A DNA stretch of 64,000 bases, from assembly GCA_000497835.1 (NCBI GenBank), contig KI547171.1, positions 254,866 to 318,865 on the forward strand. The letters run 5' to 3'. The notes under the pieces are model-generated. The model did not search any database and was not told the origin of the DNA. It worked only from the letters and a program-made list of their open reading frames with translations. This DNA is from a gamma proteobacterium L18 (GTDB taxonomy: Bacteria; Pseudomonadota; Gammaproteobacteria; Pseudomonadales; Pseudomonadaceae). The translations under genes were made by a program, and so were the position numbers. This document shows, piece after piece, positions 249 to 7,358 of the stretch (position 1 is its first letter; each line of letters begins with the position of its first letter).

Positions 249-1991
249 TCATCCGAAGGTGAACGCGTACGCTGCCACCCCGGAATCGAGAAATTCGATG
301 CTGAAGGTATGTTCAGCAATATCTCCCGACTGCCGCACCAACTGGTACAACCGCTGCTCGGTCACCTGGCCGCTGCCGTCCGGCGCCACGTCGGTGCCGT
401 GGGCGTCGCCGGGAGCCTTGCCGTCGATCATCACCTTGAAGCGCACCGGCTTGCCATCGGCGCCAGGGCCCAGCACCAGGTGCAGGTCGCGGGCCTGGAA
501 GCGGTAGGCGATGCGGCCGTTGGCCTGGTTCAGGGTGGCTTGCTCGGGGCCGATGCTCCATTGGCCTTCCACGCCCCATTGGTTCAACTGCGGCGTGGCC
601 GGCAGTTGGTAATGGGCCTCATGATCGGGGTTCAGCGCCGGCGTGGAGGCGAAGTTCTCCGAACGGCGGTAGCCCACGTAGGTTTCCGGGGAGCGCATGT
701 CGCGGTTGTCGGCGGCTTGCTGCACGCCCTGGGCATTGATGTTGACCAGGTCGTTGTTGACCTGGTTTTGCCCGGCTTCGCGCAGCAGTTGCTGGATGAC
801 GCGCTCGGACTGCTCGTACTCACCCTCGCCGAAATGGTGGAAGCGGATCTTGCCCTGGGCGTCTACGAAGTAATGCGCCGGCCAGTATTCGTTGTCGAAG
901 GCGCGCCAGATCGTGTAGTCGTTGTCGATGGCCACCGGATAAGTGATGCCCAGCTTTTTCATGGCTGCGGTGACATTGCCCACGTCGCGCTCGAAGGCGA
1001 ACTCGGGGGCGTGCACGCCGATCACCACCAGGCCCTGGTCATGGTATTTGGCGGCCCAGGCCTTGAGGTAGGGCAGGGTGCGCAGGCAGTTGATGCACGA
1101 GTAGGTCCAGAAATCCACCAGCACCACCTTGCCTTTCAGGGCCTCGGCGGTCAGCGGCGGGGAGTTGAGCCATTGTACGGCGCCACTCAGGGACGGCAGA
1201 TCGCCCTCCACGGTCAGGGGCTGGTTGTCGGCCACCTTCACGGCCGAGGCCTGGTTGGGGCGATTCTTTTCGCCCAGCACGCGGTCCACCAGGTGCTGTT
1301 CCAGCCCGCCCGTGGAGGCCGTGGACAGTTGCGCCAGCACGCCGGTGTCCAGGCCCAGGGCAATGGCGGCCACGCCGGCCAGCATCAAGGCCCCCAGGCC
1401 CCGGCGAATCCACTCGCCCACCCCCAGCGCACGTTTCATCGCCGCGAACAGCTTGCCGCCCACCAGCAGCGCAGCGGCCAGCGAAGTAGCGGCGCCCGCG
1501 GCGTAGGCCAGCAGCAACAGCGTGGTGCCGACGCTGGCACCCTGTAGGGCCGCACCGGTCAGTACCAGGCCCAGGATGGGGCCGGCGCAGGGCGCCCACA
1601 GCAGGCCGGTGGCCACGCCGATCAGGAACGAGGCGCCGGGGCGCGGCTGGCTGTCGGTGCCGGCCGCCTCGGACAGGCGGCTGCCCGCCGCCACCAGTGG
1701 CCGGGTCAGGCGCTCGGCCAGTTGCGGCAGCAACAGGGTCAAGCCGAACAAGGCCACGAACACCAGGGCCAGCCAGCGTCCATACTGGTTCAACTGCACC
1801 ACCCAGGCGCCGCCCACTGCGGCCAGAGAAGCCACCAACGCGAAGGTCACGGCCATGCCGGCCAGCAGCGGCAGGCCGCTTTTGACAAAGGGCTGGCCGG
1901 TGCGGGCGAAAACGAAGGGCAGCACGGGCAGGATGCAGGGGCTGACGATGGTCAGCACCCCCCCTAGGTAGACGATCAATAGCAGCAGCAT
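249..1991 (-). CDS. DipZ-like CcdA/thioredoxin fusion protein (thiol-disulfide transfer)
   Basis: Predicted 580-aa inner-membrane protein. The N-terminal half is a CcdA/DsbD-type transmembrane domain with the two expected redox cysteines in SPCILP (Cys19) and WAPCAGP (Cys135). A TlpA-like thioredoxin domain follows with a C-x-x-C site at Cys299-Ile-Asn-Cys302 (SCINC), then a C-terminal beta-rich domain. Known role of the family: moving reducing power from cytoplasmic thioredoxin to the periplasm. The start at 1991 was chosen over longer in-frame starts because MLLLLIVYLGG begins the first membrane helix and AAGGA lies just upstream. Divergent from the M24 peptidase gene. Confidence 0.85.
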   Translation of the reverse strand: MLLLLIVYLGGVLTIVSPCILPVLPFVFARTGQPFVKSGLPLLAGMAVTFALVASLAAVGGAWVVQLNQYGRWLALVFVALFGLTLLLPQLAERLTRPLVAAGSRLSEAAGTDSQPRPGASFLIGVATGLLWAPCAGPILGLVLTGAALQGASVGTTLLLLAYAAGAATSLAAALLVGGKLFAAMKRALGVGEWIRRGLGALMLAGVAAIALGLDTGVLAQLSTASTGGLEQHLVDRVLGEKNRPNQASAVKVADNQPLTVEGDLPSLSGAVQWLNSPPLTAEALKGKVVLVDFWTYSCINCLRTLPYLKAWAAKYHDQGLVVIGVHAPEFAFERDVGNVTAAMKKLGITYPVAIDNDYTIWRAFDNEYWPAHYFVDAQGKIRFHHFGEGEYEQSERVIQQLLREAGQNQVNNDLVNINAQGVQQAADNRDMRSPETYVGYRRSENFASTPALNPDHEAHYQLPATPQLNQWGVEGQWSIGPEQATLNQANGRIAYRFQARDLHLVLGPGADGKPVRFKVMIDGKAPGDAHGTDVAPDGSGQVTEQRLYQLVRQSGDIAEHTFSIEFLDSGVAAYAFTFG

Positions 1992-2102: not shown

Positions 2103-2128
2103 TCGCTATATAGTTATTCATATAGCGA
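2103..2128. promoter_or_regulatory. Palindromic operator candidate, copy 1
   Basis: TCGCTATAT, an 8-base spacer, then ATATAGCGA: a perfect 9-bp inverted repeat in the divergent region between the DipZ-like gene and the M24 gene, about 30 bases before the latter's start. The same arms and spacer length recur at 3847-3870. A dimeric repressor site is the natural reading; no cognate regulator is adjacent. Confidence 0.55.
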
Positions 2129-2156
2129 TACCGGAACGATAAAGGAAATCACCGTG

Positions 2157-2816
2157 ATGAATGCATTCTCAAAAGAGGCCGTCGGCCCGTCGTATAACCT
2201 GGCGTCCATGCAATACGCCCAAGCCATGACCTGGCAGGCCATCGAGCGCCTGTCCCAGCGCATTGTGCCCGGCATGCTCGAATCCCAGGCGCGCGAGCTG
2301 GGCAAGCAGGTGCTGGCCGAGCTGGACATGCAGCGCATCTGGCACCCGCTGCTGGTGCGCTTCGGCGCCAACACCCTGAAGACCTTCAAGGAGCGCTCCG
2401 AGGGTGATCCGCAACTGGGCGAGAACGATATCTACTTCATCGACATGGGCGCGGTGTGGCAGGGCCACGAGGGCGATGCCGGGGCCACCTTCACCACGGG
2501 CAATGACCCGCAGCAGGTGGCGTGCGCGGCGGCCGCCAAGACCCTGTTCGATCGCGTGGAAGCCTTCTGGCGCAGCGAAAAGGTCACCGGCCTTGCGCTG
2601 TACGAATACGCCGAGGCCCAGGCCCGCGACATGGGCTGGGTGTTGAACCTGAACATCAAGGGCCACCGCGTCAGCGACTTCCCCCACGCCATCTACCGCG
2701 GCGGCGACCTGGGCGACTTCGAGCAGGCGCCGGGCGCGGGGCTGTGGATTCTGGAAATCCAGATCGCCCACCCCACGCTGCCGTACGGCGCGTTTTACGA
2801 AGACCTGTTGGTGTAG
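2157..2816 (+). CDS. M24 family metallopeptidase (aminopeptidase P/methionine aminopeptidase fold)
   Basis: Predicted 219-aa pita-bread-fold protein. Metal-ligand motifs of the M24 family are present: the aspartates in IDMGAVWQGHEGDAG (about Asp96 and Asp107), a histidine in GHRVSDFPH and a glutamate in LWILEIQIA. It lacks the N-terminal creatinase-like domain of prolidases. The substrate cannot be told; many such stand-alone proteins are annotated only as Xaa-Pro peptidase-like. Start: ATG 2157 sits about 10 bases after AAAGGAAA; a GTG directly before it (2154) is also possible. The upstream palindrome 2103-2128 suggests repressor control. Confidence 0.8.
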   Translation: MNAFSKEAVGPSYNLASMQYAQAMTWQAIERLSQRIVPGMLESQARELGKQVLAELDMQRIWHPLLVRFGANTLKTFKERSEGDPQLGENDIYFIDMGAVWQGHEGDAGATFTTGNDPQQVACAAAAKTLFDRVEAFWRSEKVTGLALYEYAEAQARDMGWVLNLNIKGHRVSDFPHAIYRGGDLGDFEQAPGAGLWILEIQIAHPTLPYGAFYEDLLV

Positions 2817-2878
2817 CGCTGGGGGCTGCCACGCCTTGGATCAAGGCCTCGCACATTATTCCGGGCGTGGCCGACTGA

Positions 2879-3796
2879 TCACATCAGCACGCCGTCCACC
2901 GGCTCCTCGGGCTGCGCCGCCGGTTCGTCCAGCAGCTCCTGCACGGCAATCTCGATGCCGCGGCACATGGCGTTGAGGGGCAAGTCGTTGGGCTGCAGGT
3001 CGAACGGGTCGGCGATCTGGTCACCCAGGGCGTCCAGACCGAAGAAGGTGTAGGCCAGGATGCACACCGCCACCGGGGTGAACCAGCCGATGCTGTCGAT
3101 CAGGCAGAACGGCAGCAGGAAGCAGTAGATGTGCACGGTGCGGTGCAACAGCAGAATGTAAGGGTAGGGGATGGGCGTGTTCTTGATGCGCTCGCAGCCG
3201 CCCAGCACGTAGGACAGGCGCGTGAACTGCTGGTCGATGGCCACCTGCACCTGTTCGCCCGCGCCGGCCTGGCGCGCGGCTTCCTGATAGCGCTTGCCCA
3301 GCAGGCCCAGCAACGCACTGGGTGGGTTCTGGTGGCCCAGCACGGCGTGGCGGGCGTGTTCGTCCAGGCGCGCCAGGGTCTCGGGCGCCGTGGCCTCGCG
3401 GCGCAGGGTGTGCTTGAGCACGTAGGCGAAGGCGGTCAGCCCGTGCCCCAGTGCGGCACGTTGCGCCGGTGCCAGGGTGGGCAGCAGGCTCAGGGTCTGG
3501 CGGGTCAGGTTGCGGCTGACGATCAGCAATTCCCCCCACAAGGTGCGCGCCTCCCAGAAGCGCTGGTAGGCCACCGTATTGCGAAACCCCAGGAAAATCG
3601 CCAGCGTCAGGCCCCACAGGGTAAAGGGCGTTGCGGTGAGCACCACCTTGAAATGAAACAGCGTGCCGTGGATGGCCACCACCGCCGAACTGATCAGCAC
3701 CGTGAACAGCACCTTGCGCCAGATGGCCGGGATGATCGAGCCCTTGAGGGAAAACAGCAGCGTCAGGGCGGACGGGTTGTGGGGGCGGATGATCAT
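2879..3796 (-). CDS. Bestrophin family anion channel (UPF0187/YneE-like)
   Basis: Predicted 305-aa membrane protein. It has the bacterial bestrophin layout: an N-terminal pair of helices with FRNTVAYQRFWEARTLWGEL, a charged cytoplasmic region, then a second helix pair and a DxLGDQIADPFDLQPNDLPL stretch that matches the family's conserved acidic C-terminal segment. Bacterial homologues form pentameric ion channels; ion preference cannot be predicted here. It is divergent from the 88-aa gene at 3921, with the shared palindrome 3847-3870 between them. Confidence 0.85.
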   Translation of the reverse strand: MIIRPHNPSALTLLFSLKGSIIPAIWRKVLFTVLISSAVVAIHGTLFHFKVVLTATPFTLWGLTLAIFLGFRNTVAYQRFWEARTLWGELLIVSRNLTRQTLSLLPTLAPAQRAALGHGLTAFAYVLKHTLRREATAPETLARLDEHARHAVLGHQNPPSALLGLLGKRYQEAARQAGAGEQVQVAIDQQFTRLSYVLGGCERIKNTPIPYPYILLLHRTVHIYCFLLPFCLIDSIGWFTPVAVCILAYTFFGLDALGDQIADPFDLQPNDLPLNAMCRGIEIAVQELLDEPAAQPEEPVDGVLM

Positions 3797-3846
3797 GCGT
3801 GCTTCGGGCTCCTGTGGGCGTGGGGATTTGCGGTAGGGGGGCGAAG

Positions 3847-3870
3847 CGCTATATCATTTTGTATATAGCG
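3847..3870. promoter_or_regulatory. Palindromic operator candidate, copy 2
   Basis: CGCTATAT, spacer CATTTTGT, ATATAGCG. Same 8-bp arms and same 8-base spacing as the palindrome at 2103-2128, with a different spacer sequence. It lies between the divergent bestrophin and 88-aa genes, so one protein could control both directions. Confidence 0.55.
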
Positions 3871-3920: not shown

Positions 3921-4187
3921 ATGCGCGAAAGAATCTACCCCTACACGGCCTGGCTGCTGACCCGCAGCTTCCAGCCCCTGCAAATCGAGCTGATTGGTCC
4001 CGGTTACGCCGCCAGTGGTTATGACCGTACCGAGTCAGGGCGTAACTACCATGTGGATGAGTTGTACCCCAGCCTTGCCGCGGCGATTGCCTGTGGGGAG
4101 GGCAAGTTGGCGGAGCTGGCGGCTGACATTGCCAAGCGCCAGGCGAGCCTGGACAAGCGGCGCGATGCGCTGGCGCGGTTTAAGTAG
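3921..4187 (+). CDS. Small hypothetical protein (88 aa)
   Basis: Predicted 88-aa soluble protein starting MRERIYPYTAWLLTRSFQP and ending in a charged helix rich in Lys, Arg and Ala. No family is recognised. Codon use and GC resemble the neighbours, and the shared palindrome 50 bases upstream supports a real promoter. The gene ends 12 bases before the truncated sugar-binding protein remnant. Confidence 0.65.
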   Translation: MRERIYPYTAWLLTRSFQPLQIELIGPGYAASGYDRTESGRNYHVDELYPSLAAAIACGEGKLAELAADIAKRQASLDKRRDALARFK

Positions 4188-4199
4188 GGGCGACACACA

Positions 4200-4868
4200 T
4201 CAGCCCGGCTGCATGCCGGCCTGCTTGATGGCCATGGCGGCGCCGATCGCCATCTCGTCGGCGTTGGCCGCCACGGCGTCGATTTTCTTGCCCGAGACAA
4301 TCCAGTTGTTCATCAGGTCCATGGCCTTGCTGCGTTGCCAGTCGGCAGTCTGCTCCTCCACCACGTGGATGTCGGGGTAGTCCTTGAGCACGGTCTTCAC
4401 GCCCAGGGTGCGGTTGTGGGTGGCGTTGTTGGAGAGCAGCCCCAGCATGATCGCCAGGTTACCCTTGCCGCCCATCTTGTCAGCCAGGTAACGCATCTGC
4501 AGCTCGCCGGCCTTCACTTCATCCGAGCCCACGTAGCCCACCCCAGCTGGCAGCGGGTCGCCATCGGGGCGGCGGTTGACGTACACCAGCGGGATCTTGG
4601 CCTTCTGCGCGTCGGCGGTGATCTTGGCGGTGGCAGCAGTGTCCACCGGGTTGACGATGATGGCGTCCATGCCCTGGGCGGTGAAGTTCTGCACCTGGTT
4701 GAGCTGGCGCACCACGTCGCCCTGGGCGTCTTCGAACTGCAGGGTCACGCCTTGCAACTGCTTGGCGTGGGCCGCCATGTAATCGCGCATCTGCGCCAGG
4801 AACACATCGTCGACCTGGGCGATGCTGACGCCGATGTGGGTGTCAGCCAAGGCCAGGGGCGAAAGCAT
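4200..4868 (-). pseudogene. Truncated periplasmic sugar-binding protein (ribose/inositol ABC type)
   Basis: About 222 residues match the periplasmic-binding-protein type 1 fold used for ribose or myo-inositol: THIGVSIAQVDDVF, VNPVDTAATAKIT, IPLVYVNRRPDG and YVGSDEVKAG are typical. Both ends are missing. Only the last part of a signal peptide (LSPLALA) remains, and the protein stops at KQAGMQPG, before the final strand-helix units (roughly 70-90 residues short of the usual length of about 310). No permease or ATPase is nearby. Probably a dead remnant. Confidence 0.7.
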
Positions 4869-5262
4869 GATGGGTTTCCGCGCCTGGTTGCGCGGGCATG
4901 CCGAGCATTTGCAGGTGCTGGACATCAGCGGTGGCTACGGGGTGAATGCCAGCACGTTCGAGCGGGTGGTGCAGGCCTTGCAGCACAACCCCCTGTACAG
5001 CGTGGACGGTGGTAACCGGGCGATTGTCGATGCCTTCGCAGCCCTGGGGCGCGAGTTGGACGTGTTCATCGGCCATGACCTTGATGAAGAAAACCGGCAG
5101 CTGCTGGAAGAGCGCAAGGTGGCGGCGATCTTCGATCACAACCTGCAGATCGATGCGCGCAATGTGTTCCTGCATATCCTGCAGTACCACCGGGTGTGGA
5201 AAGCGGCGCCGCTCGCCGCCTCGCAGGTGCAGATCGTGACGCCATTCAATTTGCCAATGTAG
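4867..5262 (+). pseudogene. LacI-family regulator remnant (C-terminal ligand-binding half)
   Basis: The open frame reads as the C-terminal part of a LacI-type regulator: YSVDGGNRAIVDAFAALG, DVFIGHDLDEENRQLL, and VAAIFDHNLQIDARN. There is no HTH domain and about half of the protein is missing. It faces head-to-head with the truncated sugar-binding protein, and the two fragments meet at about 4867. This fits one deletion that removed the shared promoter region, the regulator's N-terminus and the binding protein's 5' end. Confidence 0.6.
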
Positions 5263-5306
5263 CCGCTGCCGAAGGCTGCTACAGGGGAGAGTGCATTCTG
5301 TCGATC

Positions 5307-5386
5307 GCGTCGCCTGCATCGCGACTAAAGTCGGCTCCTACGCCGTACGTGGTAGGAGCCGGCCTTGGCCGCGATGCAGGCGACGC
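5307..5386. repeat. Type-1 palindromic repeat (REP/BIME-like)
   Basis: Inverted repeat whose left half holds CGCCTGCATCGCGACTAAAG and whose right half holds GGAGCCGGCCTTGGCCGCG followed by ATGCAGGCGACGC. It ends 2 bases from the tetR stop codon. Full copies recur at 11953, 19014, 19303, 46011 and 47693, all in intergenic DNA. Confidence 0.85.
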
Positions 5387-5388
5387 CG

Positions 5389-5991
5389 TTACGGCGCCAA
5401 CCCATCGAACAACATCTGCGTCATCTTGCGCACCCGCTCGCCATGCGCCTCGAAATCCGGTAGGTCTTGCTGCACCAGCCGCATGAATTGCATTGAGCTG
5501 TAGTCATTGAGGAAGTACGCGACAAAATCCACGTCGATGGCCTGGCTCAACAACCCGCGACCCTGCAGTTCACGCAGCAAGCGGCCAATCTCTTCCACCA
5601 ACCGCGCATTCAACGGCAACACGGTCTGCGGCGTCGGCCCCAGCAAGCCCAATGGCAGCAACTCGCGCCAGATGGTCGGCGGCAGGACTTCCAACTCATG
5701 CCGCACAATCAGCGCTTCCAGGTGGCACATGGCGTCCACGGCGTTATCGAACGCCGGCATCGACAGCTGGGCATCGGTCACCGCGCGCAAATCCGCCTGC
5801 TCCACCACGGCCAGCAAAATGTCCTGCTTGCTGCCGAAGTAGTTGAACACCGTGGGTATCGACACCCCCGTGCGCTCGGCGATCTGCTCCACCGTGGTGG
5901 CGGCGAAACCCTGGTCTTCGAACAGGCCCAGCGCCGCCACCAGGATGGCCTCGCGCCGTTGCTGCTTCTGCCTTTCTCGCAATCCGCTCAT
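5389..5991 (-). CDS. TetR/AcrR family transcriptional regulator
   Basis: Predicted 200-aa repressor. The N-terminal TetR HTH is clear (REAILVAALGLFEDQGFAA, then TVEQIAERTGVSIPTVFNYF and GSKQDILL). The C-terminal ligand domain is divergent, as is normal for the family. Divergently placed 128 bases from the serine hydrolase gene, so it probably controls the 6.1-11.9 kb hydrolase set. A CTAAT-N6-ATTAG palindrome lies in the shared intergenic region. Confidence 0.88.
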   Translation of the reverse strand: MSGLRERQKQQRREAILVAALGLFEDQGFAATTVEQIAERTGVSIPTVFNYFGSKQDILLAVVEQADLRAVTDAQLSMPAFDNAVDAMCHLEALIVRHELEVLPPTIWRELLPLGLLGPTPQTVLPLNARLVEEIGRLLRELQGRGLLSQAIDVDFVAYFLNDYSSMQFMRLVQQDLPDFEAHGERVRKMTQMLFDGLAP

Positions 5992-6027
5992 GTCCGTTTT
6001 CCGGCTCCCAAGGTTAAGTCGTTGATT

Positions 6028-6043
6028 CTAATCGAAGCATTAG
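6028..6043. promoter_or_regulatory. Possible TetR operator
   Basis: CTAAT-CGAAGC-ATTAG inverted repeat, 37 bases upstream of the tetR start and about 77 bases upstream of the hydrolase start. Position fits an operator for the adjacent TetR protein; the arms are short, so the call is weak. Confidence 0.3.
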
Positions 6044-6119
6044 TAGGGGCAAACATTTTATTTGACTAAAAGCTTTTATCGCAATAAAACTATTCCCACC
6101 ACGACCGAGGGAAGCGTTC

Positions 6120-7358
6120 ATGACCACCGATTTCAACCATGCCCTGCGCGGTGCCTACGCCGCTGAAAGGGCTGAGCCCACCCCACCGCTGATGCAGGGC
6201 TTTCCACCTGAACCGGGTGCGCGGGTCACCTGGCACAACTTCATGCAGCCGCCGCACAACCGCTGGGCGTTCCTCAACCTGGGCCGCATTCGCCCTAGCA
6301 TCAGCGTCACCCGTGGCCAGGCGCTGCCCACGCCGTTGAAGCAGGGGGCGCCGGTACTGGAAGACTTCCAGTTTGAAAGCGCCAGCGGCGCGACGGTGGG
6401 GTTGCATCAGCACCTGCAGGCCAGCTGCACCGACGGTTGGCTGGTGATGAAGGACGGCGCCGTGGTGCAGGAGCACTACTTCAACGGCCACCAGCCGCTC
6501 AAGCGCCACATCATGTTCTCGGTGACCAAATCCCTGATCGGTCTGCTGGCCCAGACTCTGGTGGGGCAGGGCGTGCTGGATGAGCAGAAGCTGGCCCTGG
6601 ACTACGTGCCGGAACTGGCCGGCAGTGCTTTTGGCGATGCCACGGTGCGCCAACTGCTGGACATGGCCGTGGCCATTGATTACGAGGAGGTCTACGACGA
6701 CCCGCGTTCCGGCAGCTCGCAGTTTGGTTACGCCTGTGGTCTGACGCTGCCGCCGGCCGATGTGCAGGCCGCCTACCAGTCGCTGTACGAGTACCTGCCG
6801 GCCACCCGCAAGAAGGGCGAGCACGGCGGCTTCTTCCACTACGTGACCGCCACCACCGAAGCCCTGGCCTGGGTGATGGAGCGCGCCAGCGGCGTCAGTT
6901 GTGCCCAGCAGTTGAGCGCGCTGTGGCAAGGGCTGGGCTGCGAGCGCGACGGCTTCTTTATCGCCGACCCCTGGGGCCGCAATGTGGCAGGCGCCGGCTT
7001 CAACGCCACCTTGCGCGACATGGCCCGCTACGGCGTGATGCTGCTGGCCGGCGGCGTGGCCAACGGGCAGGTGCTGATCCCGCGCAGCGTCATCAGCAAC
7101 GTGCTGGATGGCGGCGACCGGGCGATCTATGCGGCCAACGCCGGCTTTGCGCAATGGAGCCCGGGCGCCACCTACCGCAGCCAGTGGTACGTGTACCCCG
7201 GCGAGGCGATGCTGGCGGTGGGCATCCATGGCCAGTACCTTTACGTGGATTTTTCCCGTGACGTGGTCATCGTCAAGCAGTCCTCGCTGCCGGTGGCCGA
7301 GAGCGTGCTGGACGTGGACACCCTGCGCCTGATCCGGGCCTTGGCGACCGCGCTGTAA
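6120..7358 (+). CDS. Serine hydrolase, class C beta-lactamase fold (NylB-like)
   Basis: Predicted 412-aa protein with the S-x-x-K catalytic motif at Ser134-Val-Thr-Lys137 (FSVTKSLIG) and the NylB/EstB-type sequence YVTATTEALAWVMERASG followed by GFNATLRDMARYGVMLLAGG. Family members hydrolyse amides or esters such as 6-aminohexanoate dimers or D-amino-acid peptides. No signal peptide is seen, so it is probably cytoplasmic. First gene of a same-strand set with a polyamine-type binding protein, a porin, a CocE-type hydrolase and a DUF3237 protein, divergent from tetR. The substrate is unknown; an amine-containing amide or ester is plausible. Confidence 0.82.
   Translation: MTTDFNHALRGAYAAERAEPTPPLMQGFPPEPGARVTWHNFMQPPHNRWAFLNLGRIRPSISVTRGQALPTPLKQGAPVLEDFQFESASGATVGLHQHLQASCTDGWLVMKDGAVVQEHYFNGHQPLKRHIMFSVTKSLIGLLAQTLVGQGVLDEQKLALDYVPELAGSAFGDATVRQLLDMAVAIDYEEVYDDPRSGSSQFGYACGLTLPPADVQAAYQSLYEYLPATRKKGEHGGFFHYVTATTEALAWVMERASGVSCAQQLSALWQGLGCERDGFFIADPWGRNVAGAGFNATLRDMARYGVMLLAGGVANGQVLIPRSVISNVLDGGDRAIYAANAGFAQWSPGATYRSQWYVYPGEAMLAVGIHGQYLYVDFSRDVVIVKQSSLPVAESVLDVDTLRLIRALATAL

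Follow-up and report, generated by a model that had tools for sequence, protein, structure and literature searches.

The modA gene is a classic target of ModE. In Escherichia coli and Pseudomonas aeruginosa, ModE represses modABC when molybdenum is present in the cytoplasm, according to excerpts of a published account (PMC9171197). A consensus for the site recognized by ModE has been published as ATCGCTATATANNNNNNTATATAACGAT, and excerpts of the paper that gives it report that the ModE regulon of Geobacter sulfurreducens was predicted genome-wide from the consensus and includes genes outside molybdate transport (PMC2700814). Geobacter metallireducens, in the same excerpts, has lost ModE, and its sites are said to fade (PMC2700814). 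In E. coli strain E2865, the modA operator is located 19 bp upstream of the gene and differs by one mismatch from the palindrome CGNTATAT-N8-ATATANCG.

Here, we analyze two copies of that palindrome in the window, the whole 64,000-nucleotide stretch of DNA under study (G000:C8:254866-318865, where G000 is the window's own genome, a Pseudomonas genome of 6.85 Mb). The two copies are predicted ModE boxes of the same palindrome as the E. coli modABC box, and a further copy in the genome occupies the same place as that box, just before modA. Unlike those of the E. coli box, the arms of the window copies are perfect CGC/GCG palindromes, and the window boxes precede genes for an M24 hydrolase and an 88-aa protein instead of modABC. 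The consensus used here is the one behind the predicted G. sulfurreducens regulon, but the target genes are different. Moreover, unlike the situation in G. metallireducens, the sites of the window's genus are conserved and ModE is present. Judged from sequence, the boxes would be an already known kind of site, and the M24 and 88-aa genes would be new targets. Among the papers listed by searches of the open-licence PMC literature, we found no description of the M24 or 88-aa protein as a ModE target and none of a link between bestrophin and molybdate, for which a paper on CysZ was listed.

RESULTS

Two copies of one palindrome in divergent intergenic regions

An earlier note on this DNA, made from the sequence alone, reported two palindrome copies with identical 8-bp arms, 8-base spacing, and different spacers, and exactly this was found in the window (Table 1). 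The arms CGCTATAT and ATATAGCG are common to boxes 1 and 2, the spacers differ (AGTTATTC versus CATTTTGT), and the distance from box 1 to box 2 is 1,743 bp. The gene order given in that note (DipZ-like gene, box, M24 gene; bestrophin gene, box, 88-aa open reading frame) is correct. The copies lie at 2104-2127 and 3847-3870; the start given in that note, 2103, is one base early.

Table 1. Positions in the window of the two predicted ModE boxes and the four genes that flank them
Feature	Coordinates	Strand	Remarks
DipZ-like thiol-transfer membrane protein	249..1991	-	Pfam Thioredoxin_10, AhpC-TSA; ATG at 1991, 112 bp from box 1
Box 1 (predicted ModE box)	2104..2127	.	CGCTATAT-AGTTATTC-ATATAGCG; exact motif match
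M24 (pita-bread) metallohydrolase, 220 aa	2154..2816	+	PF00557, 54.7 bits; starts 26 bp past box 1
Bestrophin-family channel	2879..3796	-	PF25539, 337 bits; ATG at 3796, 50 bp from box 2
Box 2 (predicted ModE box)	3847..3870	.	CGCTATAT-CATTTTGT-ATATAGCG; exact motif match
88-aa protein	3921..4187	+	Box conserved before homologues; starts 50 bp past box 2

Inverted repeats with an 8-base loop could form a stem, and the boxes might be palindromes that arose by chance or are purely structural, as in a hairpin or terminator, with no DNA-binding protein involved. We give this explanation almost no weight. Across 100 dinucleotide shuffles of the window, there was no match at up to three mismatches, against the two exact matches observed. 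When position 3 of each arm was freed, the shuffles averaged 0.19 matches at up to three mismatches, and at least two matches occurred in 2 of the 100. Moreover, the arms are kept and the spacers vary among the M24 boxes (base frequencies were computed on the 23 distinct sequences among 28 boxes), the position of the box before gene starts is maintained in orthologues, and the orthologue tests on the M24 and 88-aa loci, described below, also speak against such an origin. A terminator scan found nothing at boxes 1 and 2.

Farther along the window, an open reading frame for a sugar-binding protein on the minus strand (4200-4925) is overlapped by one on the plus strand (4822-5262). The latter resembles, by eye, the end of a sugar-regulator-type protein and had no Pfam match at an E value of 1e-5. 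The open reading frames between 4200 and 5262 are possibly gene remnants. A TetR gene at 5389-5991 was considered as a local regulator and was dropped, as there is no box near it.

The palindrome resembles the ModE box

At up to two mismatches to the motif, the 6.85-Mb genome holds five places, and the backwards control of the search tool, which is affected by the self-similarity of a motif that resembles its own reverse shifted by one base, gave one. The five places are the two window copies, which are exact, two copies with one mismatch (before modA and before a TetR gene), and one with two mismatches (C3:295210). The last extends over the initial codons of an open reading frame unrelated to the others and is probably a chance match.

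The copy before modA connects the motif with molybdate. In the modABC operon of the genome (L004), CGCTATAT-N8-ATATAACG lies 25 bp upstream of modA with one mismatch. ModA scored 252.9 bits on TIGR01256, for which the cutoff is 62.5, and modB and modC were assigned from sequence and place only. Of the 22 positions of the published consensus ATCGCTATATANNNNNNTATATAACGAT, box 1 matches 19 and box 2 matches 18; the operator of the genome's own modA matches 19 in its better orientation, and that of E. coli modA matches 16.

The genome also encodes ModE, on another contig and outside the window. The protein was over the cutoff for both TIGR00637 (ModE_repress) and TIGR00638 and consists of an HTH_1 domain and two TOBE stretches. 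Its identity to E. coli ModE is 42%, and the SYKxAWDAI and GGKGGGGA segments, which we take to be the recognition helix and wing of ModE, are nearly the same, such that the helix-turn-helix segments of the E. coli protein are matched in the window's genome. On the E. coli-type full-length model NF007957, it scored 198.9 bits, under the cutoff of 369. The earlier note had proposed a small regulon whose regulator is not encoded locally, and the data support this; the regulator is very probably ModE, acting from another contig. The ArsR-, GntR-, or MarR-type regulator expected in that note gives way to ModE, very probably, on account of the modA copy, the consensus match, and the ModE gene in the genome. 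Likewise, the modA copy and the consensus match point to molybdate instead of redox or anion stress as the signal.

ModE and its box recur across the genus. The exact CGNTATAT-N8-ATATANCG motif was present in 80 of 149 genus genomes, and the backwards control, subject to the self-similarity described above, was zero in all 149. ModE was over its cutoff in 137 of the 149. One of six genomes in which the ModE match was absent or weak (weaker than an E value of 1e-20) carried the exact box, versus 79 of the 143 others (Fisher P = 0.10), a difference too small to tie the box to the presence of ModE. The exception is G037 (locus L013), which has its exact box at modA, yet its best ModE match had an E value of only 1.9e-5; the missing ModE is perhaps a draft gap. 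When exact-box loci were fetched, one per genome, modA adjoined the box in 26 of 30, these 30 being part of all matches; the loci lacking modA were L015, L022, L023, and L029.

The box could instead be the operator of another regulator, such as a RutR-like TetR protein, and its likeness to the ModE box could be due to convergence. A copy beside a regulator gene, as the earlier note had anticipated, does exist: a RutR-like TetR gene of the same genome (L003:1570-2493) has a one-mismatch box 45 bp upstream, and some relatives encode a TetR homologue beside the M24 or 88-aa box (L095, L102, L185, and L186). It is the modA copy, however, that identifies the system. Control by TetR is very unlikely in our view, given that modA adjoins 26 of the 30 boxes fetched and that the box sequence fits the published ModE consensus. 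Apart from this, the L003 record reads N over a stretch within the TetR gene that is flanked by repeated sequence, and the gene on the far side of the box encodes VgrG.

The box is conserved at the M24 and 88-aa genes

Which flanking genes own the boxes was addressed with homologues fetched by protein similarity and not by box, each scored by the best box, of up to three mismatches, in the 250 bp before it. For M24, the sample was the best 30 loci, and an M24-like match occurred in 55 of 149 genomes, including fusion proteins of roughly 38 to 40% identity. A box preceded 28 of the 30 M24 orthologues (25 at up to two mismatches), in every case 15 to 41 bp ahead of the aligned start. The two orthologues counted as boxless had four mismatches (L071, from a genome in which M24 is paired with molbindin) and five mismatches (L085). 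For the 88-aa protein, five of six homologues in the genus sample had a box, and the one left over is a fragment that contains a stop codon. By comparison, only 3 of 30 DipZ orthologues had a box, all beside M24, and 3 of 30 bestrophin homologues had one, all beside the 88-aa gene.

A reversed-sequence control, which gave 33 boxes forward and 23 reversed, was set aside for the self-similarity of the motif, and 60 permuted motifs were used instead. Their means were 0.5 of 30 for M24, 0.03 of 6 for the 88-aa gene, 0.12 of 30 for bestrophin, and 0.03 of 30 for DipZ. The highest count for any permuted motif at the M24 loci was 11 of 30 at three mismatches; at two mismatches it was 1 of 30, versus 25 observed.

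A set of 88-aa loci from GTDB genomes gave a similar picture. The box was directly upstream in 11 of 13 (permuted mean, 0.15; highest, 2), where 12 of the loci are titled Pseudomonas, one is a Paucimonas MAG, and four genomes are shared with the genus sample. In the other two loci (P. defluvii and P. laurentiana), the 88-aa gene lies about 16 bp past M24, and an exact box lies before M24. The box links the M24 and 88-aa genes, and in two species the two are also neighbors in a gene pair.

The M24 box is also kept in other neighborhoods, such as L096, with genes for a tRNA pseudouridine synthase and a PRA isomerase, and L095, with a TetR gene. At an E value of 1e-30, M24 was not found in the 273 other genomes of a class sample of 274, and conservation of the M24 box is confined to one genus. 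The earlier note had taken conservation upstream of orthologues as a check on its reading, and such conservation holds for M24 and the 88-aa gene but fails for DipZ and bestrophin. Because the box is conserved at the former pair and not at the latter, support for a role as target extends only to M24 and the 88-aa gene.

Alternatively, ModE might repress both sides of each box, such that all four genes are members of the regulon, with DipZ perhaps supplying periplasmic reductant and bestrophin an oxyanion channel at low molybdenum. Both boxes do sit in divergent intergenic regions, and the distance to the gene start is 50 bp for bestrophin and 112 bp for DipZ. Three genomes keep the bestrophin/88-aa pair (G000, G051, and G086), three keep the DipZ/M24 pair (G000, G086, and G023), and Pseudomonas sp. 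dw_358 (L180) has an exact box separating DipZ from the 88-aa gene. However, a box is lacking at 27 of 30 DipZ homologues and at as many of the 30 bestrophin homologues, and in G051, DipZ has neither an M24 neighbor nor a box, while the M24 gene elsewhere in that genome retains its box. We regard membership of all four genes as unlikely. The earlier note had drawn all four into one regulon; M24 and the 88-aa gene stay in it, and the DipZ and bestrophin genes, with boxes only beside those two, probably drop out. A four-gene regulon for redox or anion stress is disfavored by the same orthologue box counts. By sequence conservation, DipZ and bestrophin are probably neighbors only, and we think it fairly probable that they are not regulated by ModE or are regulated only incidentally.

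Products of the genes beside the boxes

M24 metallopeptidases such as prolidase, X-Pro aminopeptidase, and methionine aminopeptidase have the same fold and the same five metal-ligand positions as the M24 protein of the window. At 220 aa, the latter is presumably too short for the N-terminal domain of prolidases. No PDB sequence matched it at an E value of 0.01. Its AlphaFold model (mean pLDDT, 86.9) had prolidase 1pv9 as the best PDB fold match (E value, 2e-8; TM score, 0.75). An alignment of 26 sequences shows no variation at D97, D108, H171, E201, and E216, and we take these D, D, H, E, and E positions to be the ligands of a two-metal site with the expected spacing. Since the two-metal site is apparently intact, M24 is probably an active, metal-dependent hydrolase, as judged from the sequence and the model.

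The 88-aa protein had no Pfam or NCBIfam family at an E value of 0.001 and no PDB sequence match. Structure prediction gave a small sheet and a long helix, with a pLDDT of 89.7 for the best of five models and of 64.6 to 67.0 for the other four. A fold search returned no significant match, only weak Tudor/SH3-like ones (best E value, 0.23). As for the divergent neighbors, the bestrophin matches its family profile and, at E values below 1e-58, bestrophin structures of the PDB, 4wd7 and 4wd8 among them, and the DsbD_TM Pfam match of the DipZ-like protein was slightly below its cutoff.

Molybdenum-related genes near the box in relatives

Molbindins (Mop domain, TIGR00638) are encoded beside M24 in 9 of 30 fetched loci, downstream and on the same strand (one as a partial gene and one 462 bp away), yet no molbindin was found in the window's genome at an E value of 1e-25. 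Five of these nine loci have a second box, at up to three mismatches, before molbindin. The same search found molbindin in 31 of 149 genus genomes. The other 21 of the 30 fetched loci had no M24 nearby, and 2 of the 21 had a box. In two relatives that have the same gene cluster, a molbindin gene with two Mop stretches (TIGR00638, 154.8 bits; cutoff, 55) adjoins bestrophin. The pairing of M24 with molbindin in relatives suggests that M24 helps the cell to handle molybdenum or to cope when it is lacking.

In the two relatives that share the cluster, the 88-aa gene is followed by a Rieske oxygenase gene with an exact box of its own. The nearest solved relatives of this oxygenase are SxtDIOX and SxtT, with the methylxanthine demethylases NdmA and NdmB coming next. 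The Rieske oxygenase could replace a molybdenum hydroxylase, by analogy with hpxDE of Klebsiella, which is described in excerpts of PMC7373994. In two loci (L055:2618-6151 and L048:4695-6284), an exact CGNTATAT-N8-ATATANCG box lies downstream of a rubredoxin-reductase gene and precedes a LysR gene. A Rieske oxygenase gene precedes the rubredoxin-reductase gene in L055, and the genome of L048 (G011) also has a Rieske oxygenase. L055 contains, in addition, a TetR gene with a two-mismatch box.

In three genomes, genes for TonB-dependent receptors are also preceded by ModE-like boxes (L047:5576-5739, L050:6136-6308, and L051:5670-5693), which hints at uptake of a molybdenum carrier. Two loci (L088:2208-3935 and L089:3792-5516) encode fusions of about 575 aa in which a C-terminal M24 domain, 38 to 39% identical to the M24 protein of the window, is joined to an FAD/NAD reductase and a ferredoxin domain of the [2Fe-2S] type; the fusion gene of L088 has a TonB-receptor gene (3969-6305) after it. 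Neither L088 nor L089 had a box at up to two mismatches. Finally, a box in G051 (contig C2; L054:5636-5659) lies about 1.7 kb from an open reading frame whose best match is a PTS transporter of enterobacterial type; the contamination listed for G051 is 9.

DISCUSSION

How the two boxes might act follows from what is known of modABC. We propose that ModE, encoded elsewhere in the genome, would load molybdate and that the molybdate-loaded protein would then bind the box next to the M24 start and the box next to the 88-aa start. Once bound, ModE would most likely repress both genes, as with modABC. When molybdenum is scarce, the M24 and 88-aa genes would be switched on. That the boxes are ModE operators at which the molybdenum-loaded protein binds beside the two starts, most likely as a repressor, is in our judgment highly likely. 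The binding of ModE to the window copies, taken by itself, we regard as somewhat more likely still.

That the effect of ModE on M24 and the 88-aa gene is repression is likely, by analogy to the geometry of the modA operator. The distance from box to start is nearly the same for M24 (26 bp) and for the genome's own modA (25 bp), and with the reported repression of modABC, this modA-like distance makes repression at sufficient molybdate the best reading. It rests on analogy because a promoter scan recognized no sigma-70 promoter near boxes 1 and 2.

Perhaps M24, the 88-aa protein, and molbindin are a molybdenum-starvation module of Pseudomonas, in which M24 either frees molybdenum from a peptide-like carrier or replaces a missing molybdoenzyme, and bestrophin passes molybdate-like anions. 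The idea of release from a carrier comes from the related M24 domain found in fusion with a reductase of the ferredoxin type, next to which a TonB receptor is encoded. We consider such a module doubtful as a whole.

Two uncharacterized genes now probably answer to molybdenum, and their probable regulator has a name. Orthologues separated the probable targets, M24 and the 88-aa gene, from the divergent neighbors, DipZ and bestrophin, a distinction that one genome could not make. Ultimately, with a box before 28 of 30 M24 orthologues, a function in molybdenum handling or in molybdenum-free life may be tested in several Pseudomonas species.
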